NCBI RefSeq assembly: GCF_907163085.1
Contig: NZ_CAJQTX010000006.1
Span: 1-64,000, forward strand
Reading direction: 5' to 3'
Origin: Candidatus Accumulibacter sp. ACC003
Lineage (GTDB): Bacteria; Pseudomonadota; Gammaproteobacteria; Burkholderiales; Rhodocyclaceae
Length of the DNA: 64,000 nucleotides
The translations under genes were made by a program, and so were the position numbers. Under the pieces are notes generated by a model, which was not told the origin of the DNA, did not search any database, and was given only the letters and a program-made list of their open reading frames with translations. Below, piece by piece: positions 43,791 to 61,641 of this stretch; the first letter of the stretch is position 1; the number at the start of each line of letters is the position of its first letter.

Positions 43791-43845
43791 AGGGGATAAG
43801 CGTGCTGGATGAGATGGCGGCAAAAGACCATGAATGGCCACAAAA

Positions 43846-44724: not shown

Positions 44725-44890
44725 TTTTTAAAATATCCACAAGATCAATTGCTTGCGGTTAGTTTGTTAGCTAAAAGCGTAAGTATTCGGTGAACCCGTA
44801 GCCCCCGCTTTTTTGGTCGGCGTGGTTCAGTCAGCGATTGGCGGGTAGACCGGAAATCTGGACTGGACACAGCAGCGGAAATCCGGCACC

Positions 44891-46591
44891 ATGCGGCGCA
44901 TGGACACGGGTGCGGACATCATTGGCGGAGGATCGGCGGCAAGTCACCGCCAAGTGGCGCCGTTCGCCGAGGTGTTGGTGACGTTGACCAAGGAGCAGGA
45001 AATCAAGCTCCGCTGGGAGGCCAGCTTCTGGCGGAGCCAACATCGACAAGCGCTGGTTCGGTTGGCGCAATCGGAGGCCGCTCATCGGGTGGAAATGGCG
45101 CAAGCGGCGGCGCGCGAGGCGGCCTTGCGCAGCGAACTGGAGCAGGCCAAGGGCAAGATCCGCGATCTGCAAAAACGCCTGTTTGGTCGCAAGTCAGAAC
45201 GCTCTTCGGGAGCCGAGAAGAACCCGGCGGCGGACCAAAAATCGTCGCGAGCTCGAGGTCAGCAACCGGGAGCAGCGGGTCACGGGCGGAACCCGGAAAG
45301 TCACTTGCCGACGCAGATCGAGGTCATCGACATCGACTGCCCGCATTGCCCGGACTGTGGTCTGGGCTACGTCGACTTTCCCGGCACGGAAGACAGTGAA
45401 GTCCTCGAGATCGAGGTCAAGGCCTACCGCCGGAAGATCTGCCGGCGGCGCTACCGGCGGACCTGTCAGTGTTCGGGCGCGCGGGGTATTCTGACCGCGC
45501 CACCGCCGGCACGATTGATCCCGCGTGGAAAGTACGGCGTGTCGATCTGGGTGCACCTGCTGCTGTCGAAGTTCTTGTACGGCCAGCCGACGCATCGGCT
45601 TCTGCGAGACTTGTCCGACCACGGACTGACGCTCTCGGCAGGAACGGTGGCCGGCGGACTGCGTGCCTTGGCACCGCTGTTCGAGCCGCTTGAAGAAGCA
45701 CTGCTTGGCCAACTACGCAGCGAGAAACAGTGGCACGCAGACGAGACCCGCTGGCGGGTCTTTGCCGAGACCGAAGGGAAGGTCGGACATCGCTGGTATT
45801 TCTGGGTGTTCCACGGCCCATCGGTCATCCACTTCGTGCTCGACCCGAGCCGCTCGGCGGCGGTGCCGATCCGGGAGCTCTCCGGTAGCGCCGGAGGAGT
45901 CATCATCTGTGATCGCTATTCGGCCTACAAGAAGCTCGCGCGAGTCCTTGACCACTTCATTCTGGCTTTCTGCTGGGCACATCAGCGGCGTGATTTCCTG
46001 GAACTGGCCAACGCCCATCCGGAGCTCGCGGACTGGGCACTGGCCTGGGTCGAGCAGATCGCTCAGCTCTACCACTTGAATGGACGGCGCCTGGAAGTCC
46101 GTAGCGACCCAGTACAGTGGGCCGAACGCGACCGCGCCTTGCGGCAGGCGATCACGCAAATGGCCAGTCAACGGGAAAGCGAACTGGCGAACCCGGCGCT
46201 CAAAATGCCGGCGAGCAAGGTGCTGCGAAGCATGCGCAAACATTGGTCCGGCCTGACCGTCTTTGTCGACCGCCCCGAGGTGGCGATGGACAATAATGCC
46301 GCCGAGCGCGCACAGCGCACGCCGGTGGTCGCACGCAAGAACTTCTATGGGTCGGGCAGTCTCTGGTCCGGCGCACTCGCCGCGACGATGTTCAGCTTGC
46401 TGCTGACGCTGCGCTTGTGGGGAATCAACCCGCGCACCTGGCTGACGGCGTATCTGGAGGCCTGCGCCGCCAACGGCAACCTGCCGCCGACGGACTTGAG
46501 TGCCTTTCTGCCCTGGGCGATGGCGACCGATCGACTGGCTCAGATGCGTGGCATCCCGGTCGATCAGAGCCGTCCCATCGATAGCTCGTGA
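44891..46591 (+). CDS. IS66-family transposase (TnpC type)
   Basis: A 566-residue IS66 transposase with an N-terminal coiled coil (EAAHRVEMAQAAAREAALRS, ELEQAKGKIRDLQKRLFGRKSE), a zinc-finger-like motif (CPHCPDCGLGYVDF), and DDE residues in QWHADETRWRVF, VIICDRYSAYKKL, and NNAAERAQRTPVVARKNF. The full-length frame is intact. The stop overlaps the start of the DUF4338 gene in GTGA, coupling their translation. Unlike classical IS66 it has no tnpA/tnpB upstream. Confidence 0.95.
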   Translation: MRRMDTGADIIGGGSAASHRQVAPFAEVLVTLTKEQEIKLRWEASFWRSQHRQALVRLAQSEAAHRVEMAQAAAREAALRSELEQAKGKIRDLQKRLFGRKSERSSGAEKNPAADQKSSRARGQQPGAAGHGRNPESHLPTQIEVIDIDCPHCPDCGLGYVDFPGTEDSEVLEIEVKAYRRKICRRRYRRTCQCSGARGILTAPPPARLIPRGKYGVSIWVHLLLSKFLYGQPTHRLLRDLSDHGLTLSAGTVAGGLRALAPLFEPLEEALLGQLRSEKQWHADETRWRVFAETEGKVGHRWYFWVFHGPSVIHFVLDPSRSAAVPIRELSGSAGGVIICDRYSAYKKLARVLDHFILAFCWAHQRRDFLELANAHPELADWALAWVEQIAQLYHLNGRRLEVRSDPVQWAERDRALRQAITQMASQRESELANPALKMPASKVLRSMRKHWSGLTVFVDRPEVAMDNNAAERAQRTPVVARKNFYGSGSLWSGALAATMFSLLLTLRLWGINPRTWLTAYLEACAANGNLPPTDLSAFLPWAMATDRLAQMRGIPVDQSRPIDSS

Positions 46592-47445
46592 AGCCTTATT
46601 GCGGGCGTCACTTTACCGACGACGAACTGCAGGCCCTCTGCCGCCTGATCGAAGCCCATCCTGGCAGCAGCCGCGCGCAACTGTCGCGCCAGGTGTGTGA
46701 GCTCTTCGACTGGCGTAAGCCCAATGGCGAGCTGAAGGATATGACCTGCCGGGTGGCCATGCTGCGTATGCAGGCCGACGGCCTGCTCACCCTGCCGGCG
46801 GCACGACGGGCCGCTCCTCGCCAACCCGAGTATCTGCCTACTCACGCCACCGATCCACAACCGTTGCTCACCCAGCCGGTGCATGAACTGCCGCCGCTGC
46901 GTCTGCATCAGGTCGTCGGTTCGGCGAACTCGCGTCTGTGGAACGAGTACATCGCCCGCTACCACTATCTCGGCCACACGCCCATGGCGGGCAGTCAGAG
47001 CCGCTACTTCGTCTTCGCCGGCGAGACCCTGGTCGCCTTGCTCAGCTTCGGCGCCAGCGCCTGGAAACTCGCCGCGCGCGAGCAATTCATCGGTTGGCAC
47101 GATGAGCAGCGACAAAGGAACCTGCAACTGGTGGTGAACAATGCCCGCTTTCTGATCCTGCCCTGGATCCAGTGCAAGGGCCTGGCCTCCAAGATCCTCT
47201 CGCTTATGCAGCGGCAATTGCCCAAGGACTGGCTGGCGCGCTACGGCTACCGCCCCGTACTACTCGAAACCTTCGTCGAGACGCCCCGCCATCGCGGCAC
47301 CTGCTACCAGGCCGCCAACTGGATCAAGGTCGGCCAAACCGCCGGCCGAGGCAAGAAGTGCCCCACCCGCAAGTCGATCCTCCCGATCAAGGATATCTGG
47401 CTCTATCCCCTTCACCGATCCTTCCGATCAGTCCTCTGCCGCTAA
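46588..47445 (+). CDS. DUF4338 (DruA-like) protein within the IS66 element
   Basis: A 285-residue protein of the DUF4338 family, to which DruA of the Druantia anti-phage system belongs. An N-terminal part (LCRLIEAHPGSSRAQLSRQV; DMTCRVAMLRMQADGLLTLP) resembles a winged helix. The domain then shows YHYLGHTPMAGSQSRYFVFA, FIGWHDEQRQRNLQLVVNNA, RFLILPWIQCKGLASKILS, LLETFVETPRHRGTCYQAAN and GQTAGRGKK. The start GTG 46588 overlaps the transposase stop by 4 bp. Being within the TIRs and target duplication, it is part of the transposon. Whether it helps transposition or protects the host is unknown. Confidence 0.88.
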   Translation: MKPYCGRHFTDDELQALCRLIEAHPGSSRAQLSRQVCELFDWRKPNGELKDMTCRVAMLRMQADGLLTLPAARRAAPRQPEYLPTHATDPQPLLTQPVHELPPLRLHQVVGSANSRLWNEYIARYHYLGHTPMAGSQSRYFVFAGETLVALLSFGASAWKLAAREQFIGWHDEQRQRNLQLVVNNARFLILPWIQCKGLASKILSLMQRQLPKDWLARYGYRPVLLETFVETPRHRGTCYQAANWIKVGQTAGRGKKCPTRKSILPIKDIWLYPLHRSFRSVLCR

Positions 47446-47639
47446 CCCGCCTCGGCAATGGCGCTGGCGCGCTACGGGTTGGCCGAATACTTACCTAAAA
47501 GCAAGCAATTGATAGGGATGTGTAAAAATTTACGACAAGATTCGCGCCTGGTACTTGTGTTACGGCCGTGTGGCAAAAAATGGTGTGCGCGGCGGCGTGA
47601 ATTTCGGTGGAATTAGTATTGAGTATTGGGAGGTTTGAA

Positions 47640-48053
47640 ATTCGTGCCTCTAAAGTGGCCGCGAGAGCGGCGATTGGCGGTTCAGTGCGGTCTGTCGTGG
47701 GTGAAGGTTTCCGACCGGCAGGAGCGGCCTTGGAGTCTGGCTTTCTCCGCGCTCGCTGCGCTCGCGGCTGTTCTCGGCGCCCGCCAGAAGCGCGCTGGCG
47801 TGCCCTTTGCCATGAGCGTGCTGTTTTCGTCGCCGCTTTCCTCAGCCTGACGGTGATGTTCTGGCCGGACATGATTCCCTGTTCGCTGACCGTCGCCGAC
47901 GTGGCTTCGCCGGAAGCGTCGCTCTGGTTTCTCTTTTACGGCGCCATCATCGTGCTGCCGGTGATCGCCGTCTGCACCATCGGCGTGTACCGGGTTTTCC
48001 GTGGCAAGATCGGCAAGCCCAATGACATCGTCGTACGCACTTGTGGCAGATGA
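47640..48053 (+). pseudogene. cydB: Cytochrome bd oxidase subunit II C-terminal remnant
   Basis: The plus strand encodes RERRLAVQCGLSWVKVSD and FSALAALAAVLGARQKRAGV, then PFAMSVLF; after a frame change near 47,830 it continues FLSLTVMFWPDMIPCSLTVA, DVASPEASLWFLFYGAIIVL, and TIGVYRVFRGKIG. The late blocks match the C-terminal helices of CydB-type subunits (FWPYMIP, VTVAEAASPEAS, YTxGVYWVFRGKI). Only about 120 of roughly 335 residues remain. The left part was lost, with the IS66 element 145 bp upstream. The DUF3302 gene follows. Confidence 0.72.
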
Positions 48054-48199
48054 TCGGCGGGCTGCGGGCTGCCGCCGCGTCGTAGTTCCGCGCCCTGGCG
48101 GCGGTCGCGGCCCGGAAAGTCGCTGTATACTCGCCGCCTTGGCGGCTTGGTGACCACGTTGCCAAGCCATACGATAGCGGCATTGAGGGACGATCGACG

Positions 48200-48568
48200 A
48201 TGCTTGGCTTCGAACTGGATTTCTGGGACTACGCAACCTTCGCCACGGCGCTCCTGGCGGGCGTCGCGGTGTTGACGATCTTCGTCTGGATTGCCGGATT
48301 GCCGGGGCGGATCGCCCTGGCCCGCAAGCATCCGGAAGCCGAAGCGGTGAAGCTGATGGGCTGGGCCGGACTGCTGCCGACGATCTACCCCTGGGTACAG
48401 GCGTTCATCTGGGCTTTCAAGCCGACCGATGTCATCGATATTCGCCGCTTCCCGCGTGCCGAGGCACGCGCGATCGAAGAGGAGCTTGCCCGCCTCGACG
48501 GGAAGGCCGAGGCCACGCCGGCCAAGACGACGGCCGAGCCACCGCCCGCCAGTGGCGCGCCGAGCTGA
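48200..48568 (+). CDS. DUF3302 inner-membrane protein (YiaW-like)
   Basis: A 122-residue membrane protein: a first helix (ATFATALLAGVAVLTIFVWIAGLPG), an ARKHPEAEAVKLMGWAGLLP segment, then a second helix (TIYPWVQAFIWAF) and a cytoplasmic tail. The ARKxHP...GW core is the DUF3302 hallmark, seen in E. coli YiaW. It directly precedes a HlyD/YiaV-type gene, the same partner as in E. coli, supporting a membrane-efflux accessory role. Confidence 0.82.
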   Translation: MLGFELDFWDYATFATALLAGVAVLTIFVWIAGLPGRIALARKHPEAEAVKLMGWAGLLPTIYPWVQAFIWAFKPTDVIDIRRFPRAEARAIEEELARLDGKAEATPAKTTAEPPPASGAPS

Positions 48569-48583
48569 CGAGGAAAGATTCCC

Positions 48584-48844
48584 ATGCTGTTCGGTTTTGT
48601 GCTCCTGTTCGGCTACGCTTTCATCGTGTGGCTGGTGTTCTTCAAGTTCAAGTGGATGAAGTTCAACATCGCCTGGGGCGTGGTGTCCGTCTCCGTTGGC
48701 CTGCATCTGCTGATCATCTTCATGCTTGGCCTGCGCTTCGTTGCCCCGTATGCGACCGAGGCGAAGGTCATCCAGCACACCATTCAGCTGGTTCCGCGAC
48801 TACCCGAACCGACGCTGGTGACCGAGGTACTGGTTGCTCCTAAC
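48584..48844 (+). pseudogene. HlyD/YiaV-family adaptor gene, 5' segment (interrupted)
   Basis: Starts at ATG 48584 and encodes LLFGYAFIVWLVFFKFKWMK (membrane anchor) and IQHTIQLVPRLPEPTLVTEVLVAPN, the N-terminal part of a YiaV-like HlyD adaptor. At 48845 foreign DNA starts (E then stop). The rest of the gene lies at 51272. Joined, the two parts give a 384-residue product in frame (...VLVAPN|VPVKKGQPLF...). Interrupted by the IS91-like element. Confidence 0.92.
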
Positions 48845-49137
48845 GAATAAGGATAGATCGTGCGAAGCCACGATCTGATCCGTTTGTTGGACGAGCCCGG
48901 GCCGGAGCGCTGGGCGCGCCCTCTGCAAATATCTTTTTTGGATTTACCCCGCAGGCATGAATGCCGAAGGGCGGGGAGCGGGCCGTCGCCGCGCGCTGCG
49001 GCACCGTCAGCGAAGATCGCGCAAATCCGGCCGTTTTGGCGTCCCGGCCACTGAACTCCGGGCGACCCCGTCACTCAGCTTGGGGAAACTGAAGTCCCAA
49101 AGGCGGCCGGACAGCGCTGTGAAGGCGGCTTACACGA

Positions 49138-50244
49138 TCAGGCAGCGATCGCGACGAGCGGTGGAGCAGCGACGAAGGCGGGCGATGTTGATCGAATACG
49201 CGTCCGGACAATTGACATCACGGAGCCACAGCACGGGCAAAGCATCGCTGGCCGCTCCTTGCGCGGCGGCGTGAAGCGGCTGGGATCGAACTTCAGCAAG
49301 CGGTGCAGCAAACTGATCAGGCGCTTGCAGTTGGCGTGCAGGAAGCCGAAATTGCGGGCGCGGCGAAAGCCCTTGGGTAGCACGTGCTGGAGGATCAGCC
49401 AGAGGAAATCGGCGCCGGCTAGCGAGCGCTTTTCCGACTTGCCGGTTTGTGCGTTGCGGTAGCGGAAGCTCACCCGCCCATCCTTACAAGCGAGGATGTC
49501 CTGTTCACGGATGACGCCGCGGTAGAGGTAACGACCGAGGTAGATCAGGGCCTTCTCGCCGCTGCCCACCGATTTGCAGTGCGCTACCCATTCCCGCGGA
49601 TAGGACGCCGGCAGGCAAATGCCGGCCGCCTCGATCGCCGCCAGCATTTTGGCCCGGAAGACCTTGGCCATCGCCTTCTCGTTGAACAGGTAGGTGCCGT
49701 TCTTGCCGCGCCGCTTGCGTCGCCAGCGCTGCTTCGCGGCATCGATCGCTGCCGCGGGGACGACGAGATGGACATGCGGGTGGAAGTCGAGCCGACGCGA
49801 GTGCGTGTGCAGGACCGCGATGGCGCCGGGCGTGCCCTGCAACTGCCGGTCGTTCTGACTGAAGCGGTGCACCGTTTCCCAGGCACAGCGCATCAAGCCA
49901 TCGAAGACGACGTCGGCGTGCGCCGCAGCGAGCCCGCGCAATTCGGCCGGCAGCGTGAAGGTCAGCAGAAAGTAGTCGGCCGGGACGAGGCGCTCTATCT
50001 GACGTTCCAGCCATTGCTGGCTCTCGTGGTGCTGGCAGTGCGGGCAAAGGCGATGGCCGCAGGAATGCGGAACGAGTTTTTGCTGATCGCAGCCTTCGCA
50101 CTGGAGCTGCATCATCGGGCTGGCCGGGCCGCGGCAATCGCGCATCGCCGAGAGTGCCCGAAGCTGATCGAAGCTCAGGCGGTGGCGAAATTGCGTCATG
50201 AAGTCCGCTTCGAATTCGGCAATGACAGAGCCGAGGCGGATCAT
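49138..50244 (-). CDS. IS91-family transposase (HUH/Y)
   Basis: A 368-residue rolling-circle transposase. Zinc motifs are CEGCDQQK and CGHRLCPHCQHHE. The metal-binding HUH is in DFHPHVHLVVP, and the catalytic Tyr is likely in LIYLGRYLYRG. ATG 50244 (MIRLGSVIAEF) overlaps the recombinase stop by 4 bp (50241-50244); an in-frame start at 50268 is possible. The 3' end lies 290 bp from the left boundary. Confidence 0.92.
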   Translation of the reverse strand: MIRLGSVIAEFEADFMTQFRHRLSFDQLRALSAMRDCRGPASPMMQLQCEGCDQQKLVPHSCGHRLCPHCQHHESQQWLERQIERLVPADYFLLTFTLPAELRGLAAAHADVVFDGLMRCAWETVHRFSQNDRQLQGTPGAIAVLHTHSRRLDFHPHVHLVVPAAAIDAAKQRWRRKRRGKNGTYLFNEKAMAKVFRAKMLAAIEAAGICLPASYPREWVAHCKSVGSGEKALIYLGRYLYRGVIREQDILACKDGRVSFRYRNAQTGKSEKRSLAGADFLWLILQHVLPKGFRRARNFGFLHANCKRLISLLHRLLKFDPSRFTPPRKERPAMLCPCCGSVMSIVRTRIRSTSPAFVAAPPLVAIAA

Positions 50245-51157
50245 CGCGGCGTCCCCTTGCTCAGACAAAAGCGGTCCATCAGCGCGTTGATGCGGTCGAT
50301 GGCGTGATGCCGGGTTTGATCCGTCAGATGGGTGTAGCGAACCGTCGTGAGAATCGAGTGATGGCCGAGAATGCTCTGCACCTCGGTGAGCTCGACGCCC
50401 GCCTCGATCAGGTGCGTGGCATAGGCGTGACGCAAACTGTGCGGCGAAATGTTTTTTTTAGCCCGCAGGATTCGACCACCGCCCGCAGTGCCTTCTGAAC
50501 GCCGCTGCGATTGAGCGGTGTCCTGGCGCTGCTCGCACCTGGCAAGCCGCCGCGGCGATTGGGAAACAGCAGAACGGGATTACGGTGGCGCTGCCAGAAA
50601 CAACGCAGGAGTCGGTAGGTGGCCGTCGGCAGCGGCACCAGGCGATCCTTGTTGCCCTTGGCATCGCGGATATGCACCCGCCCGCGCGCGCCGTCGATGT
50701 CGGCGACCGTCAGCCGTAAGCCTTCGCCCAGGCGCAGGCCGAGACTGTAGAGGGTGAAGAAGAAAACGCGGTAACTGAGCACCTGCGTGGCCAGAAAAAT
50801 CCGCTCGGTCTCCTCGACCGTGACGATGTCCGGCAGGCGCAGCGAGCGCGGCGGCTTGATCAGACCGGGCGCCACCCAGGGTTTCTTCAGCACGTGCTCG
50901 TAGTAAAACTTGAGCCCGTACAGATCGAGCTTGAGCGAACTCCAGGAGTGCGTCTCACGCAGGTCGGCGAAGTAATCCAACAGGTCGGCCTCGCTCAGAT
51001 CGTCGATCTGATGAGCGAAGTAATCTCCCACCCGGCGGACGGCGCGCGAATACGCGTCGATCGTCTTCGGCTGCAAGCCCTTGAGCTTCAGGTGCTTCTG
51101 GTGCAGCTCGTAGTTCGTGTCAAAAATCGTCGTTGCGACAGCGGACATCTCTTCCAT
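50241..51157 (-). pseudogene. Tyrosine recombinase (XerC/D-like) split at an A8 run
   Basis: Two overlapping frames make one recombinase. The first encodes the SAM-like core-binding domain (LHQKHLKLKGLQPKTIDAYS) and a catalytic start (YSLGLRLGEGLRLTVADIDG, with Arg), ending soon after GLKK. The second gives the HxxR/Tyr region (LRHAYATHLIEAGVELTEVQ, ILGHHSILTTVRYTH). They meet at eight T on the plus strand (50452-50459). A shift of -1 on the A-run, at A-AAA-AAC, joins them as GLKK-NISPHSLRHAYATHL. Programmed slippage, transcript slippage or a plain one-base loss are all possible. The start is uncertain (51157, 51148 or 51175). Confidence 0.8.
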
Positions 51158-51271
51158 CTTGCGGTAACCTCGCATTCGTCATGAACGTCCCTCGGATGAG
51201 GGGCGAGGTCACATCTTGAGTCAACGCGACGACAGCACCGGGGTTTCCTCCGCGTAGCGGCTTCGTCCAAC

Positions 51272-52165
51272 GTGCCGGTCAAGAAGGGCCAGCCGCTGTT
51301 CCAGTTTGATCGTCGCGCCTATCAATACAAGGTCGATCAGCTCGAAGCGTCGTTGGCCAAGGCCAAGCAGAATGTGCTGGTGATGAAGAGCGACATCGAC
51401 ATCAACGCGGCGAAGGTCGTCAAGCTGCGCAGCGAGCTGAAGTACGCAAAGTACCAGGAAAAGCTTTCAGTCAAGCTCGCCAAGCAGGGCGCTGGCCCCG
51501 AGGAAGACGCCCAGAAATGGAGCGCGCAGGCGGCCGCCCATGCTGCCGGGGTCCAGGAGGCGCTGGCCGAGGAGCAGCGTGCGCGGCTGCAATACAACTC
51601 GCAGATCAATAACGTCAACACGACGGTCGCCGAAGTACAGGCCGAGCTCGAGCAGGCGCGCTTCTACCTCGACAACACGCTGATGGTCGCGCCCGAGGAC
51701 GGCTACATCATCAATCTGCAGGTGCGTCCGGGGATGGTCGCCGGCATCGTCCGTTTCGGCGCCATTGCCGCGTTCATCTGCGACGCCGATCGTTACCTGC
51801 TGGCTAATTTCTTCCAGGAAAATCTCAAGTACGTGAAGCCCGGCCAGTTGGTCGAGGCGGCGATCGATCTCTATCCCGGGCAGATATTTCGTGGTACGGT
51901 CCAGGCGATCTGGAAGGGCAACGGTGTCGGGCAGATGCTGCCCAGCGGGACGCTGCCGACATTCTCCTACGTGCCGACCGAAGTCCCGCAGGGACAGTTC
52001 GCGGTTGCTATCCACCTCGACGACGAGGACCAGGCGAAATTCCCGATCGGCACCCAGGGTCGGGCGACAATCTACACCCATCCCGACAGCGGCTTCGTCG
52101 TTTTGCGGCGGATCGGTATCCGCGCCTACAGCTGGTTCAACTGGCTGTACCCCTTCGCCGGCTGA
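51272..52165 (+). pseudogene. HlyD/YiaV-family adaptor gene, 3' segment
   Basis: Continues the interrupted gene from 48844: VPVKKGQPLFQFDRRAYQYK, a long coiled coil (DQLEASLAKAKQNVLVMKSD; EEQRARLQYNSQINNVNTTV), and a barrel part (MVAPEDGYIINLQVRPGMVA; FFQENLKYVKPGQLVEAAID). A GTG at 51272 might allow a truncated product without the membrane anchor. The stop overlaps the outer-membrane factor start by one base (TGATG). Confidence 0.92.
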
Positions 52166-53628
52166 TGCGCGCGCCGATCGTCATGGTGCTCAGCGCGCTG
52201 GCCGCGCTGGCTGGCTGCGCACTGAAGACCCCCTTCACGCAGTCCGAGGTGGTCGAGCAGGCGCTGCCGGCGTCGACCCATATTCCCGCCGCCTGGCAGG
52301 CCGACGCCAGGGCCGGGAGCGTCGTCGACGGTTGGCTGAAGGCCTTCCAGGATCCGCTGCTCGAGGCCATCGTCGCCGAGGCCATTGCCAATAACCTCGA
52401 CCTGCGCCAGGCGGCAGAGCGCGTGCGCATCGCTCAGCAGCAGCTGCTGCTCGTCGGCGCGCAGCTGGCGCCGCAGATTGACGGGCAACTCGGCGCCAAG
52501 AGCCTGCGCGACAAAGACCAGGGTAATAGCTTCAACAGCACGCTGGCCTACGTCGGCGTCGCCTGGGAGATTGATCTCTGGGGCCGCCTGCGCGCGCAGC
52601 GCGCTGTTGCCGAAGCGGCCTTCGAGGCCAGCGCGCTTGATTACGCGAACGCGCGCCAATCGCTGGCGGGGCTGGTGGCAAAGACCTGGTACTTGGCCAT
52701 CGAGACGCGCCAGTTGGTCCAACTCAGCGAGCAGGCGGTGCGCGTTTTCGAGGACCTGCTGCGGCTGGTGGATATCAGGTTTTCCGCCGGCAAGGATTCC
52801 GAGCTGAACGTGGTCGACGTCCGTGCCCAGCTCGAGACGGCGCAGAGCGATCTCGAAGGTGCTCGCCAGGCTGCTGGCGACGCACGCCGCGCCCTGGAAA
52901 TCCTGCTCGGCCGTTATCCCGGCGCCGAGTTGGCGGTGGCGTCGTCGTTTCCACGGCTGCCGTCGGTCGTCGGCGCAGGCGCGCCCGCTGCCTTGCTCGA
53001 ACGACGCCCGGACATCGTCGCCGCCGAGCGCGCGGTGCTCGCCGCCTTCCGCCAGCAGGAAGCGGCGGAGTTGGCGCTGCTGCCGGATTTCTCCCTGTCA
53101 CTGGCCGGCGGTCGCCTTGGTGACAACCTGCTCTCGCTGCTTCGCCTCAATCCGTGGTTGGCCGCGGCCGGCATCGGCGTGTCGATTCCGATCTACGAAG
53201 GTGGCGCCTTACGCGCACAGATCGAGATCGCCAATGCGCAGCAGGCGCAGGCGGTCGCCCACTACGGTGCGCTGATGCTGGACGCTTTTCGTGAAGCCGA
53301 AGCCGCCCTGGCCAACGAGCAGTTCCTGGCCAGGCGCATACCTTTTCAGGATCGTGCGGTGGTGGACCGTACTGCCGCCGTACGCATCGCCACTGTCCAG
53401 TATCGGGCGGGTATGCGGGACCTGCTCTGGGTGGCGCAGTTACAGTCGGCAGAGATCCAGAGCCAGGCGATCGCCATCAAACTGCGTGCCACCCGGGGCG
53501 CCAACCGCATCCGGCTGTATCTGGCACTTGGCCGTAGCTTCGACGCTACGCCGGCGGTGGCTGCGGCGCTTCCCCCTGCACGTCCATCACGCGACGACCA
53601 GGAACAGGCGACGACCACGGCGCAGTAG
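52165..53628 (+). CDS. Outer-membrane efflux lipoprotein, NodT family
   Basis: A TolC/OprM-like outer-membrane channel of 487 residues. Lipobox LAGC is near residue 18. Two OEP repeats follow (NNLDLRQAAERVRIAQQQLL, WEIDLWGRLRAQRAVAEAAF; FSAGKDSELNVVDVRAQLET and LERRPDIVAAERAVLAAFRQQE in parts), then GVSIPIYEGGALRAQIEIAN and RAGMRDLLWVAQLQ. It is translationally coupled to the interrupted HlyD adaptor, so DUF3302-HlyD-OMF formed an efflux operon. No inner-membrane pump is seen in the window. Confidence 0.92.
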   Translation: MRAPIVMVLSALAALAGCALKTPFTQSEVVEQALPASTHIPAAWQADARAGSVVDGWLKAFQDPLLEAIVAEAIANNLDLRQAAERVRIAQQQLLLVGAQLAPQIDGQLGAKSLRDKDQGNSFNSTLAYVGVAWEIDLWGRLRAQRAVAEAAFEASALDYANARQSLAGLVAKTWYLAIETRQLVQLSEQAVRVFEDLLRLVDIRFSAGKDSELNVVDVRAQLETAQSDLEGARQAAGDARRALEILLGRYPGAELAVASSFPRLPSVVGAGAPAALLERRPDIVAAERAVLAAFRQQEAAELALLPDFSLSLAGGRLGDNLLSLLRLNPWLAAAGIGVSIPIYEGGALRAQIEIANAQQAQAVAHYGALMLDAFREAEAALANEQFLARRIPFQDRAVVDRTAAVRIATVQYRAGMRDLLWVAQLQSAEIQSQAIAIKLRATRGANRIRLYLALGRSFDATPAVAAALPPARPSRDDQEQATTTAQ

Positions 53629-54066: not shown

Positions 54067-55683
54067 ATGTACATCGCCCACATCCCCAACCGCAAGTCTA
54101 GGCCAGCCATTCTGCTTCGCGAATCGTATCGCGAGGGGGGCAAGGTCTGCACACGGACTATCGCCAATCTGACGAATTGGTCTGCGGAGCAGATCACCGC
54201 GATGGAACGTCTGGTGAAAGGCGAGTTCGACGATTGGTCCGGGGAGATGACCAGTGGTGAGATTTTCGGTGTTCTGTTTGCGCTCAAGCATCTGGCTGAC
54301 CAGGTGGGCATCACGCGGGTGCTGGGCACGGCCCCGGAAAGCAAGCTCAACTTGTTCCTGATTCTGGCACGCATCGCGCATGGTGGGTCGCGGTTGTCGG
54401 CGGTGCGCTGGGCGCAGCAGCACGCGGTGGCCAGCGTGCTGGGGGTGGACGACTTTGATGAGGATGATCTCTACGCGGCGCTGGACTGGCTGGCGAGCCA
54501 GCAGGAGCGCATTGAGCGCGAGCTGTACCAGGCCTATGTCAAACAACAGGGCCAGCCACCGGTATTGGTGCTCTACGACGTCACCTCGAGCTACTTTGAA
54601 GGGGAATGCAACGAGTTGGGGCGGTACGGTTACAACCGCGACGGCAAGCGGGGCAAGCAGCAAATCGTCATCGGTTTATTGACCGCGGAGGACGGGGAGC
54701 CCCTGGCTGTGCGAGTCTTCGAAGGCAACACGGCGGACCCGACGACGGTGGCCAGTCAGATCACGATTCTCAAAGAGCAATTCGGCCTGGCCGAGGTGGT
54801 GCTGGTCGGCGACCGGGGAATGATCAAAGCCAAGGGGAAAGCGGCGCTGTCGGCGCAGGGCTTTCGTTATATCACCGCCTTGACTGACGCCCAGGTGCGT
54901 ACCTTTCTCAAGCAGGGCGTGTTGCAGACGGATCTCTTCGACGCACATCTGTGCGAGGTGGAGCACGGCGACAAGCGCCTGATCGTGCGCCGCAACGATA
55001 CCGTGCGGGTACGCGAGGAGCGGCGGCGGGACGACAAGCTGACCCAGTTGCAGGCAAAGATCACCGCACGTAACGCCTTCGTCAAGGACTCCACCCGCGC
55101 CAGCGCCGCGACAGGCCTGGCCGCCCTGCAGAACTGGGCCAAGCGCCACAAGCTCAGCGGGTTTGTCACGCTGACGCTGGAGGAACGCGTCATTGTCTGG
55201 TCTATCGACGAGGAGGCCAAAGCGCAGGACGCTCTGCTCGACGGCTGCTACCTCCTGGAAACGAACGTGCCGGTGGACATGATGGATGCCAAGACGGTCG
55301 ATGCGCGCTATCGGGACCTGCAAAAAGTCGAGCGCAACTTCCGCACCGTGAAGACCGCCTTCCTGGAAATCCGTCCGATCTTCCTGCGCAAGGCCGAGCG
55401 CACCAAAGCGCATGTGTTCGTGGCGATGCTGGCGTTGAAGATCACCCGACAGTTTGAAGCGGGGCTGCGTCAGGCCTTCGGCACGACCGAAAGCAGTAGT
55501 ACCGCCATTACCTCGGACGACGCCCTACTGGCGCTCGGACGACTGACCTACCTCTACAGCACCGACCGCAACGGTCAGCGTCACACTCACCTGCCGCGCC
55601 CGGACGAGCAACAGGCACAGATCCTCGGTGCCATTGGCCTTGCCTTCCCCCTCAAGCCAAAAGCCCAGAAGCGCGCTGCGTAG
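54067..55683 (+). CDS. IS1634-family transposase
   Basis: A 538-residue DDE transposase, full length. N-terminal part MYIAHIPNRKSRPAILLRES, then the DDE residues in LVLYDVTSSYFEGE, VVLVGDRGMIKAKGK, and the Glu block YRDLQKVERNFRTVKTAFLE. IS1634 hallmarks such as GYNRDGKRGKQQIVIGLL are present. ATG 54067 is chosen over upstream in-frame Met. The element ends could not be fixed. Confidence 0.93.
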   Translation: MYIAHIPNRKSRPAILLRESYREGGKVCTRTIANLTNWSAEQITAMERLVKGEFDDWSGEMTSGEIFGVLFALKHLADQVGITRVLGTAPESKLNLFLILARIAHGGSRLSAVRWAQQHAVASVLGVDDFDEDDLYAALDWLASQQERIERELYQAYVKQQGQPPVLVLYDVTSSYFEGECNELGRYGYNRDGKRGKQQIVIGLLTAEDGEPLAVRVFEGNTADPTTVASQITILKEQFGLAEVVLVGDRGMIKAKGKAALSAQGFRYITALTDAQVRTFLKQGVLQTDLFDAHLCEVEHGDKRLIVRRNDTVRVREERRRDDKLTQLQAKITARNAFVKDSTRASAATGLAALQNWAKRHKLSGFVTLTLEERVIVWSIDEEAKAQDALLDGCYLLETNVPVDMMDAKTVDARYRDLQKVERNFRTVKTAFLEIRPIFLRKAERTKAHVFVAMLALKITRQFEAGLRQAFGTTESSSTAITSDDALLALGRLTYLYSTDRNGQRHTHLPRPDEQQAQILGAIGLAFPLKPKAQKRAA

Positions 55684-55881
55684 GCAGAAGCCGATCTCGC
55701 TTCATCCACCGTTATTTAAAAAAATACAAAGACATACAGCAGAACTTCGGCTACCAGCGCGAGGAAGATCCGTCCGGGCTGCCACGCATCACGACGGGTT
55801 TCCCTACCTGCTGGGAATCGGCTTGTCGGGGCAGGGCATCGTCGTCGGCTTCGCTGGCGCCGCGCCTGCCGCGTCAGCCGA

Positions 55882-56316
55882 TCAGCGGCGGCGCTGGAAG
55901 TAGATGTCGTACTTCTGTTTGGCGACTGCCTGGTAGTAGATGCCGATGAGTCGATCGTTGGCCGGATCGTAGGTGAGATCGTAGGTCGAGCCGCCGTAGC
56001 CGCCGGCGGTCAACTCGAAGAAGGCGCGTAGCTTGCCGTCCGCGCGTGATGCTTCGGCCCGGGCGAAAGGCAACTGGCCGGGATTGAAATACAGCGCGTC
56101 GATCTGGCCGCCCGCGGCGACGTCGCTGATGGTGATCGTATAGCCGCCGTCGGGACGCACCCAAGCGCCTTTCAACACCTTGAAGTCGACGCTCGTCGCA
56201 GCGGTTGGCGATAGCGTGTTGCCGGCGGCGGCTGCAGGTGGCGCGGCGATCGCGGTAGCGACCGAAGCCACCGCCAGCGACACGCCGAGCGTCAGCATGA
56301 TGATCGATTTATTCAT
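55882..56316 (-). CDS. Exported small protein, unknown function
   Basis: A 144-residue secreted protein: signal MNKSIIMLTLGVSLAVASVA with cleavage near AIAA. The mature domain has LKGAWVRPDGGYTITISDVA, QIDALYFNPGQLPFARAEAS, AFFELTAGGYGGSTYDLTYD, and DRLIGIYYQAVAKQKYDIYF, a compact beta-rich fold. I do not recognise a name. It follows the large lipoprotein gene (56406-58967) by 89 bp on the same strand, so they probably share a transcript. Confidence 0.78.
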   Translation of the reverse strand: MNKSIIMLTLGVSLAVASVATAIAAPPAAAAGNTLSPTAATSVDFKVLKGAWVRPDGGYTITISDVAAGGQIDALYFNPGQLPFARAEASRADGKLRAFFELTAGGYGGSTYDLTYDPANDRLIGIYYQAVAKQKYDIYFQRRR

Positions 56317-56405
56317 TTCGTCTGCTTTCATGGGTGATCAGTGCCGCGTTCGACGGCGTGACAGGTTCAGAGGTCCAGTGTTCAGGCTGCAGCAGCAAGG
56401 AATCG

Positions 56406-58967
56406 CTAACGGCGGCCGCCAAAACGGCCGCCGAAGCCGCCACCGAAGCGGCCACCAAAGCCACCGCCAAAGCGATCGCCACCACCGCCGAAGCGGTTGT
56501 CGCCACCAAAGCCGCCAGCGCTGGCATGGCTCTCGGCATTGTTGCGCGCGTTTTGCTCGCGATCGGCCCACGCGGTGTCGCCGCCAGCGGCTTGCCAGCC
56601 GTCGGCGCCGTGTTGTTGCCAGCCGCTGTCGCTGCTGCGGTAGGCACTGCCGTCGGCGCCGGCGTAGTGATTGCCGAACAGACCGCTCGAGGTATAGCTC
56701 TTGGTCTGGCCGGTCCTGGCGTCGTAGGCGGTGGTCGTGTGCTGCGCGCCGACGCCGTCCGGGCCGGCTGTCGCACCGGCGGTTTTCGAGATTGAGCTGC
56801 CGCCGGGGCCGCTTGCCGAGGCACTCGACGCGTACGAGCGCTGGCCGCTTTCGGTATTGTACGAAGTGCCGCGGGCGACGTTGCCGGTGGCGCCGCCGGC
56901 GGTATTGAAGGTCCGGTCGTAGCCGCGCTGCGCCTGACCGGTGTCGGCGTTGTAGCTGCGACCAGCGGCGTACGAGCCGCTGGTTCCGGTGCGCATGTTG
57001 GTGTAAGAGCCGCTGGCCCGGCTGCCGGCCTTGCCGTCGGCGTTGGCGTACCAGCTGCGCGAGCCGGCGTAGACGGTGTTGCCCCAACGCCCGTAGACGC
57101 TGGCGCTGGTCGAGCCGCAGCACGGATAGCCCCAGTAGCCGGGGTGATACCAGGCGCCGCCCCAGTAGTCGGTGGCCCAGGCGGCGGTCGCCAGGCCGAG
57201 GCCGAAGCCGTAGGCATAACCAACGTAGGGGTTGTAGATCGGCGCCGCGGCGAGTCCCCAGGTGTAGGGTGGCGCGTACCACATGGAGCCGATCCACGGC
57301 GTGTAGTAGTAGCCGGTGCCATAGACGACGACGCCGTCGGTGGTCACGACGTTGCCCAGGTAGCCGGGCGTATAGCCGACGTAGACGACCTCCTTGCTGG
57401 CGCCGTAGACGTGCACGTAGGTCACGTAGTGCAGCGGCGAACTGACCGGAATGTCGTAGATCACGGCTGGCACGCTGGTCGCCACGAACCACGGGCCGGT
57501 GAGGCCGCTGGCGGTGAACCAGACGCCCGCCTCGACGGCGTAATAGTTGTTCGGCGCCACCGCGATGATCGGCACCTCGGCGTTGCTGACGTAGCGCAAG
57601 GGGGTGCCGTCGATCGGCCGGAACTGCGGTGCGCCATCGAATACCGGGGTGAACTTCGGACCCTTGGCGAGCGGCATGGCGGCGGTTTGGGGAATCGAGT
57701 TGGCGATCAGCGCTTCCTGCGCCTGCGGCGTGCCGGCCACCGACGGCAGGACGGCGCCGGCCGGTGCGTTCCCGGGAATGCGGCTGAAGTCGGCGGGTAG
57801 CGCGTTGGCCGGCGTGTAGGTCCACGCACCGGTCAGCGCAGAAGCGCGGTACCAGCGTCCCGAGAGCAGCGTGTAGTAGTCGTTGTTGGCGGTATTCACC
57901 AGCACGTCGGCGGTAGTGTTCTCGGCCCACAGCAGGCCGGTGCCGGTGATCGGCACAAAATTCGGCTGGCCCTTGAAGACGATCAGTTCGGCCGGCACCT
58001 GGCTGGCGTAGATGGTCGGCACGCCGTTCTGCAGCGACGGCTTGGGATTGGCGTGCGGACCGCCGTCGAGCAGGTCCACCAGGCCTTTTTTGGCCAGTTG
58101 CCCGGCCAACTCGTTCAATCCCGAAGGCTCGCCAGCGGCTCTGCTCCACGGGCCCTCGAGCGCGGTCGCTGTCAGCCAGCCGTCGAAGACGTGCAGGTAC
58201 CAGGCGCTCTGCCCGCGCTCGCGGACGAGCAGCGCCTGGGTATTGAGGACACGTTCGAAGCGGCTGTCGGCGACCGGCCTGATCGCCGGCTGGCCATCGA
58301 TCGGCACGAGGATCGCCGGCGTCGTGCTGATGATCACGCGCGGCGGATCGTTGTTGACCTGGACGCTCTTCGCTTTTACCGTCCCCGAGGCGGCGAGTTC
58401 GCCTTCGAGCAGCGCCAGCGACATTGTCGCCATCGCCGCCGGCAACGGCGTGCGCAACTGACGCAGGTAATCGAGCCCGTGATCGGGCAGCGTCGGGAAA
58501 CTGGCGCGGCCGAGGCGGAGGTCCTCGAGAGCGACTCGTTGCGTCAGGCGATCAACGCCAGTACGCGCGGTCCCCCAGACGACGCCGAAAATCTCGTCCT
58601 TCGCGTCGGCCTTCCTGATCGCGACTGCCACCCGGAAAGCGAGCTGGTTGCCGTGCCAGCTATCGACCTGCGGCAGGTAGACCAGCGCTGTCGCGCCGAC
58701 CAGCTCGACCTGGCGTGGCCAGGCGTCGCTGGCCGGCTGCGGCGCGGCCGGCGGCTCGGCTGCGGCGCCCGCGCCCGGTGCGGCCGGGGTCGTCGGGTCG
58801 ACCACCGCCAAGGGCGGGTCGAGCAAGGCGTTGACCGTGAGCGGCATCGTCGTGTCTGCGGCCCCGTCGCCGGGAATTGGCGCCGCCTGCTGGCTGGCGC
58901 AGCCGATCGGGCCGGCGATGATGGCGCCAAGCAGGCAGGCGAGCAATCGGGGTTTGGCTACGTTCAT
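56406..58967 (-). CDS. Large envelope lipoprotein with repeated G-x-W...L-x-G-x-W motifs
   Basis: An 853-residue putative lipoprotein (signal MNVAKPRLLACLLGAIIAG, lipobox PIGC). The sequence GWLTATALEGPW, GRWYRASALTGAW and GVWFTASGLTGPW marks three copies of a motif. Between them are VPTIYASQVPAELIVFKGQP and VYGASKEVVYVGYTPGYLGN. The C-terminal third is low-complexity, rich in Gly, Ser, Tyr, with GYWGYPCCGS, and ends in Gly-Gly-Phe-Gly-Gly-Arg repeats. I recall proteins like this being annotated as carbohydrate-binding (family V/XII). No catalytic motif is seen. ATG 58967 has GGAGG upstream. Confidence 0.8.
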   Translation of the reverse strand: MNVAKPRLLACLLGAIIAGPIGCASQQAAPIPGDGAADTTMPLTVNALLDPPLAVVDPTTPAAPGAGAAAEPPAAPQPASDAWPRQVELVGATALVYLPQVDSWHGNQLAFRVAVAIRKADAKDEIFGVVWGTARTGVDRLTQRVALEDLRLGRASFPTLPDHGLDYLRQLRTPLPAAMATMSLALLEGELAASGTVKAKSVQVNNDPPRVIISTTPAILVPIDGQPAIRPVADSRFERVLNTQALLVRERGQSAWYLHVFDGWLTATALEGPWSRAAGEPSGLNELAGQLAKKGLVDLLDGGPHANPKPSLQNGVPTIYASQVPAELIVFKGQPNFVPITGTGLLWAENTTADVLVNTANNDYYTLLSGRWYRASALTGAWTYTPANALPADFSRIPGNAPAGAVLPSVAGTPQAQEALIANSIPQTAAMPLAKGPKFTPVFDGAPQFRPIDGTPLRYVSNAEVPIIAVAPNNYYAVEAGVWFTASGLTGPWFVATSVPAVIYDIPVSSPLHYVTYVHVYGASKEVVYVGYTPGYLGNVVTTDGVVVYGTGYYYTPWIGSMWYAPPYTWGLAAAPIYNPYVGYAYGFGLGLATAAWATDYWGGAWYHPGYWGYPCCGSTSASVYGRWGNTVYAGSRSWYANADGKAGSRASGSYTNMRTGTSGSYAAGRSYNADTGQAQRGYDRTFNTAGGATGNVARGTSYNTESGQRSYASSASASGPGGSSISKTAGATAGPDGVGAQHTTTAYDARTGQTKSYTSSGLFGNHYAGADGSAYRSSDSGWQQHGADGWQAAGGDTAWADREQNARNNAESHASAGGFGGDNRFGGGGDRFGGGFGGRFGGGFGGRFGGRR

Positions 58968-59137
58968 CGTTTGGTCCTCCGCGAGGGCAATAAATGGGCT
59001 GTGGCGAGCGCGACGGCGCAGTATGGAGGGCCGTCCTGGGTCGGTCAATATCGGGTCTGCACGGCAGCGCTGAAGCATGACTGCGCCAGCCCAGTACTGG
59101 CAAGGCGTTGCGGTGGGCAGGCAAAAAAGGTTTCGCA
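58968..59137. other. Promoter region of the large lipoprotein gene
   Basis: Holds GGAGG at the start of the lipoprotein gene (minus strand) and its presumed promoter. The left boundary of the DDE transposon may lie at about 59138. I could not assign -35/-10 boxes. Confidence 0.4.
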
Positions 59138-59218
59138 CAAGGGAGCTAGACAGCCGGGGGGACTTCTGGCAGGATAGGTGGAGGGTCATTGGTCCACGTT
59201 TCAGCCGGAGGTATCGTG

Positions 59219-60124
59219 GTGGTTGCAACGAGCGAAGGGGAGTGGGTGCACTGCGGTCGCGTATTCAGCGCCGCGGAGATCGCCGAGGTGTGCGGGACGG
59301 TGGCGTGGCTGCCGGGATTGGCGCGCAAGGAGTTGGCGGCGACGGTCTGCGAGCACCTGGGGTGGACCACTCTGACAGGGACGGCGAAGATCAGCGCCTG
59401 CCTGGAGTTTCTGGAGCGTTTGCAGGCGGCCGGGCTGCTGACACTGCCGGCGATAAGGCCGTCGTCAGCACGCCGTTGCGCGCCGCCCGCGGCACCCGTA
59501 GATACGGTCACCGGGGAGCTTCCCGTGCACTGCGCCCTGTCGGCACTCGCACCGGTCTGCCTGGAAGTCGTTCGCGACGCGGCGTTGGTGGCGCAGTGGG
59601 ATGCGCTGGTGGCGCGCTGGCACCCACTGGGTTTCCAGGGGGCCTTCGGCTACCGCCTGCGCTACTTCATCACGGCGGGCGACCGGCGGCTCGGCAGCGT
59701 CCTGCTGGCCGGCGCTGCCCGCGCGGTCGCCGTGCGCGACCGCTGGATCGGCTGGACGGCCCAGGCCCGCCGCGAGAACCTGGCGCGGGTGGTGAACAAC
59801 AGCCGCTTCCTGATCTTTCCCCACGTCCGGGTGCCGCATCTGGCCAGTCATGTGCTCGGACAACTCGCGCGCCGCGCACGCGCGGACTGGCTCGATCACT
59901 GGGGCTTCGAGCCCCTGTTGCTGGAGACTTTCGTCGATCCTCGTCACTATACCGGCACCTGTTACCGCGCGGCCGGTTGGCAGTTGCTCGGGGCAACCAG
60001 CGGGCGCGGGCTGGCCCGCCCCGGCCAGTCGTATCGCAGCACGCCCCGCCAGGTGTGGCTCAAACCGCTGAGCGCCGATTGTCGCGACCGGCTGTGTGCC
60101 GCCCCTGGGAGCTCCCGGCCATGA
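59219..60124 (+). CDS. DUF4338 (DruA-like) protein paired with a DDE transposase
   Basis: A 301-residue DUF4338 protein. Its C-terminal domain parallels that of the IS66-borne gene: WIGWTAQARRENLARVVNNS, RFLIFPHVRVPHLASHVLGQ, LLETFVDPRHYTGTCYRAAG, and GATSGRG. N-terminal helix-turn-helix-like part: GLARKELAATVCEHLGW and LEFLERLQAAGLLTLP. I chose GTG 59219 because GGAGG lies 7 bp upstream; a TTG at 59189 is the alternative. Its stop overlaps the transposase start (ATGA). Confidence 0.85.
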   Translation: MVATSEGEWVHCGRVFSAAEIAEVCGTVAWLPGLARKELAATVCEHLGWTTLTGTAKISACLEFLERLQAAGLLTLPAIRPSSARRCAPPAAPVDTVTGELPVHCALSALAPVCLEVVRDAALVAQWDALVARWHPLGFQGAFGYRLRYFITAGDRRLGSVLLAGAARAVAVRDRWIGWTAQARRENLARVVNNSRFLIFPHVRVPHLASHVLGQLARRARADWLDHWGFEPLLLETFVDPRHYTGTCYRAAGWQLLGATSGRGLARPGQSYRSTPRQVWLKPLSADCRDRLCAAPGSSRP

Positions 60125-61641
60125 GCAAACCCTGCCGTCGCCCGACACGCGCTGCCCTCAAGGAGCTGCGCTCAGAGAAGAAACGGCAGGAAAAGGCACT
60201 GAACGCGAAACGGCGCGCGAGTGGACAAGTCCTCCACTCCCCCACTTCTCTGCCCAACCGATGCTCAGCCTTCGCGACCGTCGGCGAGGAAAGGGAGGCC
60301 CGCGAGGACGCCGTGAGCAAAAAGACGCGTCTCCTGCGCAAAGAGCTACCCGCCTTGCTCGAGCAACTGGAACAAATTCCCGACCCGAGAGACCCCAGGA
60401 AGCGCCGCCACAAGCTGACCGCGCTGCTGCTTTACGGTCTGCTGATGTTCGTCTTTCAGTTCTCCTCTCGGCGCGAGACCAACCGCGAAATATCCCGTCC
60501 CCAGTTCATGGCCAACCTCCACCTGCTGTTCCCGGAGATCGAGACCCTGCCACACGCCGACACCCTGTTTCGGCTGCTGCGCGACATCGACCTTGACCAC
60601 CTTGAGCAGGCCCACGTCGATCTGGTGAAGCGGCTGATCCGCGGCAAGAGCTTCCGCCGCTATCTGATCAACCACTGCTACCCCATCGCCATCGACGGCT
60701 CGCAGAAGGTCGCCGGCGACACCCTCTGGGCGGAGGAACTCCTCCAGCGCACCGTCGGCAAGGAGGAAACCCGCCACACCCAGTACTTCGTCTACGTCCT
60801 CGAGGCCAGCCTGGCTTTCCACAACGGCCTGGTCGTCCCACTGCTCAGCGAGTTCCTCGAACACGCGCTGGGCGATACCGAAGCGCAAAAGCAGGACTGC
60901 GAGCTGCGCGGCTTTGTGCGCTTGAGCGACCGGCTCAAGACGCTGTTCCCCCGCCTGCCGATCCTGCTCCTGCTCGACGGCCTTTACGCCAACGGGCCGG
61001 TGATGCAGCGCTGCTTGCGCGCCCACTGGCAGTTCATGATCGTGCTTAAGGACAAGGATTTGTCCACGGTCTGGCAGGAGTTCCGCGCACTCCACGCCCT
61101 GAAGCCACAAGCCGTGCAGCGCGCTTGGGGAAGGCGCCGACAACACTTCAGCTGGGTCAACGACATCGACTACGCCTTCGCGGCCAACGGGCGTCAGCGT
61201 CTCAAGCTGAACCTGGTGGTCTGTGAGGAAAGCTGGGAAAAGATCGATGAACAGGCCAGGACCGTCACCGAAACATCGCGCCACGCCTGGCTCTCCAGCC
61301 AACCGCTCAGACAAGACAATGTCCATGAGCGCTGCAACCTCGGTGCCCGCCACCGTTGGGGCATCGAAGCGGGCTTCCTCGTCGAAAAACATCAGGGCTA
61401 CCACTACGAGCATGCCTTTGCCCTCGACTGGAATGCCATGAAAGGCTATCACCTCCTCATGCGCCTGGCGCATGTGTTCAATACCCTGGCACGTTTCACC
61501 CGGCAGTTACGCAACCTCTATCAAGAACTCGGTGTGCGCGGCGCCATCGCCTTCATCCGTAATTCCTGTGCTGCGCCCTGGCTTGACCCAGCACGCCTGC
61601 GTCTGCTTCTCGCCGAACCGTTCCTGCTGCAACTCGAATAA
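60121..61641 (+). CDS. DDE transposase (ISNCY-like)
   Basis: A 506-residue transposase with an N-terminal basic helix (MSKPCRRPTRAALKELRSEK), then IPDPRDPRKRRHKLTALLLY. The catalytic Asp residues are probably in CYPIAIDGSQKVAGDTLW and LPILLLLDGLYANGPV, with the Glu in RHRWGIEAGFLVEKHQGYHYE. The frame is intact. ATG 60121 overlaps the DUF4338 stop. I would place it with ISNCY-type elements from memory; the family is uncertain. A broken relative surrounds the Tn5-like IS at 42,076. Confidence 0.88.
   Translation: MSKPCRRPTRAALKELRSEKKRQEKALNAKRRASGQVLHSPTSLPNRCSAFATVGEEREAREDAVSKKTRLLRKELPALLEQLEQIPDPRDPRKRRHKLTALLLYGLLMFVFQFSSRRETNREISRPQFMANLHLLFPEIETLPHADTLFRLLRDIDLDHLEQAHVDLVKRLIRGKSFRRYLINHCYPIAIDGSQKVAGDTLWAEELLQRTVGKEETRHTQYFVYVLEASLAFHNGLVVPLLSEFLEHALGDTEAQKQDCELRGFVRLSDRLKTLFPRLPILLLLDGLYANGPVMQRCLRAHWQFMIVLKDKDLSTVWQEFRALHALKPQAVQRAWGRRRQHFSWVNDIDYAFAANGRQRLKLNLVVCEESWEKIDEQARTVTETSRHAWLSSQPLRQDNVHERCNLGARHRWGIEAGFLVEKHQGYHYEHAFALDWNAMKGYHLLMRLAHVFNTLARFTRQLRNLYQELGVRGAIAFIRNSCAAPWLDPARLRLLLAEPFLLQLE

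Follow-up and report, generated by a model that had tools for sequence, protein, structure and literature searches.

Two kinds of described protein come closest to the genes discussed here. Passages of PMC7824862 describe Mom, the DNA modification protein of phage Mu, as a GNAT enzyme that acts on adenine N6. Passages of PMC10853773 likewise read DUF4338, the Pfam family (PF14236) that includes DruA of the Druantia defence system, as a GNAT domain, there fused to DndF and proposed to act possibly on proteins. Elsewhere in the literature passages available to us, DUF4338 appears in one row of a list of island genes and among the Druantia genes. Here we analyse a stretch of 64,000 nucleotides of Candidatus Accumulibacter sp. 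ACC003 (contig NZ_CAJQTX010000006.1, positions 1 to 64,000; the whole stretch is hereafter called the window), which carries two insertion elements, one of the IS66 type and one with an unrelated DDE transposase, each holding a DruA gene beside its transposase gene. Both DruA genes belong integrally to their transposons, to whose transposase genes they are translationally coupled. By analogy with Mom, we propose that the protein acts as a Mom-like acyltransferase which, coupled to the transposase, modifies the DNA of the element, a reading to which we give a probability of about 0.48.

The preliminary description of this DNA had spanned both gene pairs in one extent, 44779 to 61641; the pairs stand, and the true units are 44779-47494 and 59065-61880 (Table 1). 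The first is bounded by 24-nt inverted repeats that are 92% complementary, its left end position is common to most of the aligned IS66 copies, and the 8-bp target duplication CTAAAAGC is found on both of its sides. Its TnpC transposase matches PF03050 (3.6e-59) and the NCBIfam model NF033517 (302 bits against a cut-off of 180). A target duplication of 8 bp is characteristic of IS66 elements and was present in 18 of 18 IS66-type copies tested, a set from which L034, lacking a duplication, and two neighbouring copies in L048 are left out. In IS66 elements tnpA and tnpB adjoin tnpC; neither was seen among the open reading frames (ORFs) within 44779-47494. The second unit was delimited by alignment with other copies, with TCTGCACGG as its 9-bp repeat; among 18 copies of this type the duplication was 9 bp in 13, 8 bp in three and 10 bp in one, and none was found in the remaining one. 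Its transposase passes PF13808 (4.8e-13; 49.4 against a cut-off of 32.3), with PF01609 reaching merely 0.0039, below the Pfam cut-off, and no NCBIfam transposase model above its cut-off; the protein is a DDE transposase as first described, and the label 'ISNCY-like' was given by none of the models used. Both DruA proteins pass PF14236 (6.1e-41 for the IS66-linked one and 2.2e-25 for the second) and share 36% identity. The ORFs bear out the 4-base overlaps reported earlier, GTGA after the IS66 transposase gene and ATGA before the other, as well as the opposite gene order of the two pairs, and the start of the second druA is uncertain (GTG at about 59216/59219, with TTG at 59189 also open). Since each gene pair sits between element ends and target duplications, DruA lies inside both elements, and the transposase gene and druA are the only genes recognised between the ends of each, with no accompanying Druantia genes.

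Table 1. Positions in the window of the parts of the two DruA-bearing elements.
Feature	Position	Strand	Basis
Target duplication, left copy, 8 bp (CTAAAAGC)	44771..44778		flank comparison
Left terminal inverted repeat, IS66 element	44779..44802	+	repeat search; aligned copies
IS66 transposase TnpC	44891..46591	+	ORF; PF03050; NF033517
DruA/DUF4338 protein, 285 aa; GTGA overlap with tnpC	46588..47445	+	ORF; PF14236; profile comparison
Right terminal inverted repeat, IS66 element	47471..47494	-	repeat search; aligned copies
Target duplication, right copy, 8 bp	47495..47502		flank comparison
Target duplication, left copy, 9 bp (TCTGCACGG)	59056..59064		flank comparison
Second element left end, imperfect inverted repeat, 18/23 positions by reading	59065..59087	+	aligned copies; not in repeat-search list
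DruA/DUF4338 protein, 301 aa; start 59189-59219 uncertain	59219..60124	+	ORF; PF14236
DDE transposase with DDE_Tnp_1_assoc domain; ATGA overlap with druA	60121..61641	+	ORF; PF13808
Second element right end, imperfect inverted repeat	61858..61880	-	aligned copies
Target duplication, right copy, 9 bp	61881..61889		flank comparison

The same arrangements recur throughout the genome. A profile search placed PF14236 matches at 83 places in its 5.39 Mb, 81 of which adjoin, or are fused to, a transposase; the IS66 type accounts for 32, the second type for 21 and a third type for 25, and the rest are four Tn5-type fusions and one solo broken gene. TnpC, whole or cut, stands beside 31 of the 32 IS66-type matches in the same order, the exception being a 5'-truncated copy, and all 21 second-type matches have their own transposase, whole or in part, beside them. 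The spacing between matches is likewise set, at 255 or 575 bases in 31 of 32 IS66-type cases and at 111 or 193 bases in 21 of 21 second-type cases. The third type, an element of 1908 bp, has a DruA domain joined in frame to the front of a transposase (PF13808) that we take to be of the ISAs1 type, as one relative is annotated at NCBI; of its 25 places we retrieved 24, of which 22 hold full-length copies, 20 of these with a 10-bp duplication. In the four Tn5-type fusions, one of them 5'-truncated, DruA precedes a Tn5-like transposase. The preliminary description had considered that both druA genes might be secondary insertions beside the transposases; this was rejected for both pairs because the two genes lie inside the element ends and recur together. 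Comparison of the IS66 druA variants with that of the window gave, for four of five, synonymous distances (dS) of 0.044-0.049 and nonsynonymous distances (dN) of 0.003-0.008, and for the fifth 0.005 and 0.0015, values that stand on few changes each, with gapped copies skipped and overlapping loci counted twice in the copy numbers; amino-acid changes among the variants are few. As a separate observation, the transposase of the DruA-ISAs1 element lies in two frames in 21 of the 22 full-length copies (L076:2707-4614 and 21 others), split at seven consecutive A (A AAA AAG), which suggests programmed frameshifting; a further copy examined for this, L098, is decayed.

Association with transposases extends well beyond this genome. 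GTDB species genomes were scanned with an alignment of six DruAs, and the best 80 of at least 530 relatives were kept, ranked against the IS66-linked DruA of the window and hence favouring its relatives; a co-oriented transposase was counted at up to 400 bases between match ends, or when fused. Such a transposase is present at 66 of the 80 loci, first in 31, after druA in 29 and fused in six (including L177, one frame of 717 aa). The 14 loci without one include four (L137, L162, L165, L179) in which the stretch ends less than 270 bases after druA, and also L153, L160, L183 and L185. The 66 pairs come from at least 12 phyla by record name, many of them metagenome-assembled genomes (MAGs) and six from a single Arenicellales genome; L095 and L167 are the same contig. 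Partners among the 80 are IS66, Tn5-like, second-window-type and presumably IS1634-like transposases (PF01609; DUF4277 in L145), with an IS5-like one in L174 just below the Pfam cut-off. A tnpB gene precedes druA in L170, with an IS66 partner, and probably in six similar loci. Eight partner labels, two of them weakly identified, occur in the set used for the tree described below, and in-frame fusions join DruA to three kinds of transposase, namely Tn5-like, ISAs1-type and another DDE_Tnp_1 transposase. An IS66 element from Arenicellales likewise encloses DruA within its ends and target duplications, and a Bacillota IS1634-like element, for which no duplication was shown, probably holds it between its ends. 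The suggestion that DUF4338 is a general partner of transposons is thus strongly supported by its place inside elements, the eight labels and the fusions.

A family-profile search with PF14236 in draws from whole phyla, made to reduce the bias of that ranking, found matches in 15 of 398 genomes of the window's phylum (its own genome included) and in 21 of 247 and 36 of 299 genomes of the phyla of two DruA-carrying genomes. The latter two phyla yielded 103 matches, 60 of which were taken as loci with flanks of up to 1.5 kb; 47 were of the transposon type, defined by at least 90 bits against a set of 63 DruAs, and 13 of the Druantia type or other. Same-strand transposase matches accompany 38 of the 47, in 32 cases fused or no more than 400 bases away, whereas the 13 have none on either strand (Fisher 1e-7). 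A Pfam check of the 47 rows alone adds DDE_5 (L246) and DDE_Tnp_1 (L252), making 40 of 47, and dropping L249, L267 and L279, which are also among the 80, leaves 37 of 44. These draws therefore indicate that the PF14236 family is uncommon per genome and that its short form is mostly transposon-borne in these samples; adjacency to transposases elsewhere, on which the first description depended, holds mostly for short-type genes in the samples taken. It could be argued that DruA and transposases merely meet by chance where both cluster in mobile regions, and this genome is indeed rich in insertion sequences, but the location of DruA between ends and target duplications already contradicts this, as do its recurrence in order at set spacings and the 0 of 13 Druantia-type or other loci from the same draws, so that we regard coincidence as practically negligible.

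Within the window's phylum but outside its own genome, 19 DruA matches were found on 18 stretches. In L094, L095, L096, L098, L099, L100, L105 and L107, DruA adjoins, or lies within, a transposase or what remains of one, the partner in L094 and L107 being UPF0236, which we take to be a transposase family; L101, judged by reading alone, resembles a cut ISAs1-type fusion, L091, L092 and L093 are of the Druantia type, and L097, L106 and L108 are cut or fragments. The remaining three (L102:2804-6646, L103:3-3131 and L104:3983-6022) hold DruA domains within large proteins, two of which have weak matches to AAA/STAND-like ATPases. A tblastn search of 50,697 phage records with the window DruA gave no match at 0.01, and three DruA loci were found on two viral contigs, two of them (L225 and L226) oppositely oriented, one at each end of a 42.7-kb contig. 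At least one gene matched by DruA has already been named 'ISAs1 family transposase' in NCBI annotation; a link between DUF4338/DruA and transposases was not found in the literature, in a search outside of which lay most subscription journals and ISfinder, so that prior notice is possible.

The coupling of druA to its transposase gene is also evident beyond the window. Of the 60 unfused pairs, 39 allow a start of the second gene that overlaps the stop of the first by 4 bases (a possible start, not necessarily the true one); the transposase comes first in 23 of them and druA in 16. Forty-seven first genes end in [AGT]TGA, and the frame of the second gene fits in 39 of these as against the one third expected by chance (p 3e-12). 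Distances among DruAs follow those among TnpCs (Mantel r 0.605, 0 of 2000 permutations, 33 pairs, being 39 minus near copies). In a DruA tree of 89 sequences, built by a quick method and with many open forks, 78 rows were labelled by partner and the two window DruAs fall in different clades, in answer to the question raised by the preliminary description; at least 12 changes of partner family are needed, where 100 shuffles average 30.6, and partners have therefore been both inherited and exchanged. These results bear on the notion that DruA is defence or anti-restriction cargo, carried for the benefit of the host or of the element itself with no direct role in transposition. PF14236 is named for a Druantia defence protein and Mom itself is anti-restriction, as such a notion would have it; however, loose cargo would not be expected to be fused in frame to three kinds of transposase, to overlap the transposase gene in both orders or to diverge in correlation with TnpC, and we consider this explanation highly improbable.

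As to what DruA is, the window protein matches PHROG 1384 (phrog_1384), a Mom-like DNA modification protein and the only named phage family matched (1.3e-6 over 27 residues), and 29 of 63 DruA relatives match PF25680 (Mom) at E of 0.1 or below (best 6e-5); besides PF14236 itself, no other Pfam family draws matches from more than one of the 63. Comparison by hhalign of the 63 transposon DruAs with 12 phage Mom relatives, a selection out of 284 phage records and 33 viral loci, gave a probability of 95.5% (E 1.4e-8, 163 columns), with a score of 63.4 as against at most 23.4 in 100 column-shuffled Mom profiles and 13.5 for the reversed profile. The aligned Mom/DruA pairs are H48/H126, Y49/Y127, R101/R187, S114/S201, D139/E231, Y149/Y240, N153/N244 and G158/G249; H126, R187, S201 and Y240 are invariant in 63 of 63 DruAs, as are H48, Y49, D139, Y149, N153 and G158 in the 12 Moms, and some of the aligned residues matter in Mom. 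We picture DruA as a basic protein that joins a Mom-like (GNAT) acyltransferase domain to an N-terminal part which, on its sequence pattern rather than on a model, is helix-turn-helix-like. On the simplest reading, it would be made with the transposase and held next to it, and would most likely attach an acyl-type group to bases (adenine, by analogy with Mom) of the element's own DNA, either at the element ends or in the transposition intermediate. The element might gain a shield from host nucleases, as phage Mu does from Mom, or control over when and where the transposase acts. Phage Mu, a transposing element that carries Mom, would be the nearest working precedent, and the control of Tn5 and Tn10 ends by Dam methylation is another.

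Several observations weigh against this proposal. The IS66-linked window DruA scores 18.3 bits against PF25680, below the cut-off of 27.1; the DruA profile is weakly matched by the Mu Mom sequence alone (1.6%, P 0.03), and the R187/R101 and S201/S114 pairings shift in a direct alignment. A profile search of solved structures with DruA returned one chance match (E 1.4), no measured activity of DUF4338 proteins was found in the literature passages available, and the passages on the DndF fusion raise the possibility of protein substrates. The ISAs1-type fusions lack the N-terminal part, and because a Tn5-like transposase in the window (42094-43482) is without a DruA domain, DruA is optional. GNAT enzymes commonly act on proteins, and DruA might accordingly acylate the transposase or a host factor and so regulate transposition, a role that would suit tight coupling and agrees with the protein targets proposed for the DndF-fused DUF4338 in the passages of PMC10853773; the profile link, however, is to the DNA-modifying branch, and we hold protein acylation to be distinctly unlikely.

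Target sites were examined by a 3-mer flank scan, corrected for 3-mers, positions, sides and sets, of a motif first seen by eye. The top word in two of three element types was TTG read outward: of 19 copies of the second element, 14 have it beyond the right end, starting at a distance of 17-19 bases (corrected p 8e-9), and of 21 ISAs1-type copies 10 have it beyond the left end, starting at 19-21 bases (corrected p 2.5e-6), and six have it on the other side. At the IS66 copies TTG was found in 0 of 19 on the left and 2 of 19 on the right, their own best words reaching only 6e-3; per-position content was at most 0.5 bits in 18 IS66 targets and weak, up to 0.7 bits, in 20 ISAs1-type targets. A motif common to two DruA-bearing element types would also fit a targeting role, which is a further point against DNA modification, and a possible alternative is that DruA has no enzymatic function but uses its N-terminal part and basic surface to bind target DNA or the transposon ends, helping complex assembly or target choice, with the Mom-like fold as a scaffold. 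The invariance of C37, W42 and G47 of the N-terminal block in the 63 DruAs, the high isoelectric point (pI; above 8.5 in 62 of 63, and 9.9 in Mom) and the fusions to transposases are all consistent with such a partner, as is the TTG shared by elements with different transposases. Yet the invariance of the four Mom-conserved positions is unexpected for a scaffold, the IS66 copies lack the motif and the ISAs1-type DruA lacks the N-terminal part; moreover, the transposase could itself explain TTG, because both TTG-positive elements carry PF13808. The TTG result nevertheless led us to raise our estimate for this alternative slightly, to a level that is still unlikely, and to lower that for the modification of element DNA from 0.50 to the value given above; DruA may still have a role in target choice.

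The pairing of DruA with many kinds of jumping gene suggests a previously undescribed helper of DNA transposition. Tentatively, and with more doubt than for the modification of element DNA as such, a Mom-like base modifier may be a general, exchangeable module of bacterial DDE transposons, marking their own DNA or the target so that the transposase or intermediate is licensed, aimed or protected, with Mom of Mu and DruA of Druantia as later specialisations. DUF4338, a family of unknown role, gains a context outside phage defence and a link to Mom, and some insertion sequences are predicted to carry a DNA-modifying partner. If this is true, self-made DNA marks would be involved in transposition across many phyla, and the uncharacterised DruA of Druantia would gain a testable biochemical lead; conversely, calling transposon-borne genes Druantia proteins could mislead defence surveys.

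Four observations stand apart from this argument. In L153, L160, L183 and L185, which have no transposase match, DruA has an extra N-terminal part and lies near a radical-SAM-like protein (below the Pfam cut-off in L153, L160 and L185, with a relative in L183), possibly another modification pair. The IS66-DruA stretches of L118, L119 and L120 are 84.5-90% identical in MAGs named Desulfobacteria and Planctomycetota, a likeness that suggests transfer between phyla or a binning error. In the window, the IS66 copy splits an inverted repeat (44744-44762 and 47495-47513), so that the uninterrupted site would make up a hairpin about 46 bases long, and a remnant with 55% identity to the second element's transposase lies on the minus strand at 43629-43817.

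Among described systems, the DUF4338-DndF fusion (PMC10853773) shares the GNAT reading and has a defence context, with no transposon link in its passages. Mom of phage Mu and Mom-like proteins resemble DruA in the profile homology of the acyltransferase domain, in conserved His, Tyr, Asn and Gly residues and in a similar pI, and phage Mu, like these elements, transposes and carries its own modification enzyme; the window DruA differs in about 100 extra N-terminal residues, in its coupling or fusion to a transposase, in its location on small insertion sequences and in falling below the PF25680 cut-off. DruA of Druantia type I belongs to the same Pfam family and aligns with the transposon type over the central part (hhalign 96.9%), whereas the window type, found with a transposase in a short element, matches the 297-position profile over about positions 32-222. 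The window proteins match the PADLOC DruA model at 2.7e-4 and 2.0e-4 over about 50 residues, as against 1.4e-211 for L092 and 7.4e-106 for L091, weak scores by which a Druantia locus is ruled out; an alignment of five Druantia-type sequences gave no match to the Mom profile (0.6%). The kinship with Druantia noted in the preliminary description is thus one of family membership at a distance, and Mom is the closest functional relative found. Toxin-antitoxin proteins of Tn3 are unrelated to DruA. Their genes are likewise accessory to the transposon and, in PMC7157771, are put forward as components of a transposition module, but DruA differs from them in spanning several transposase families and in being fused to some of these.

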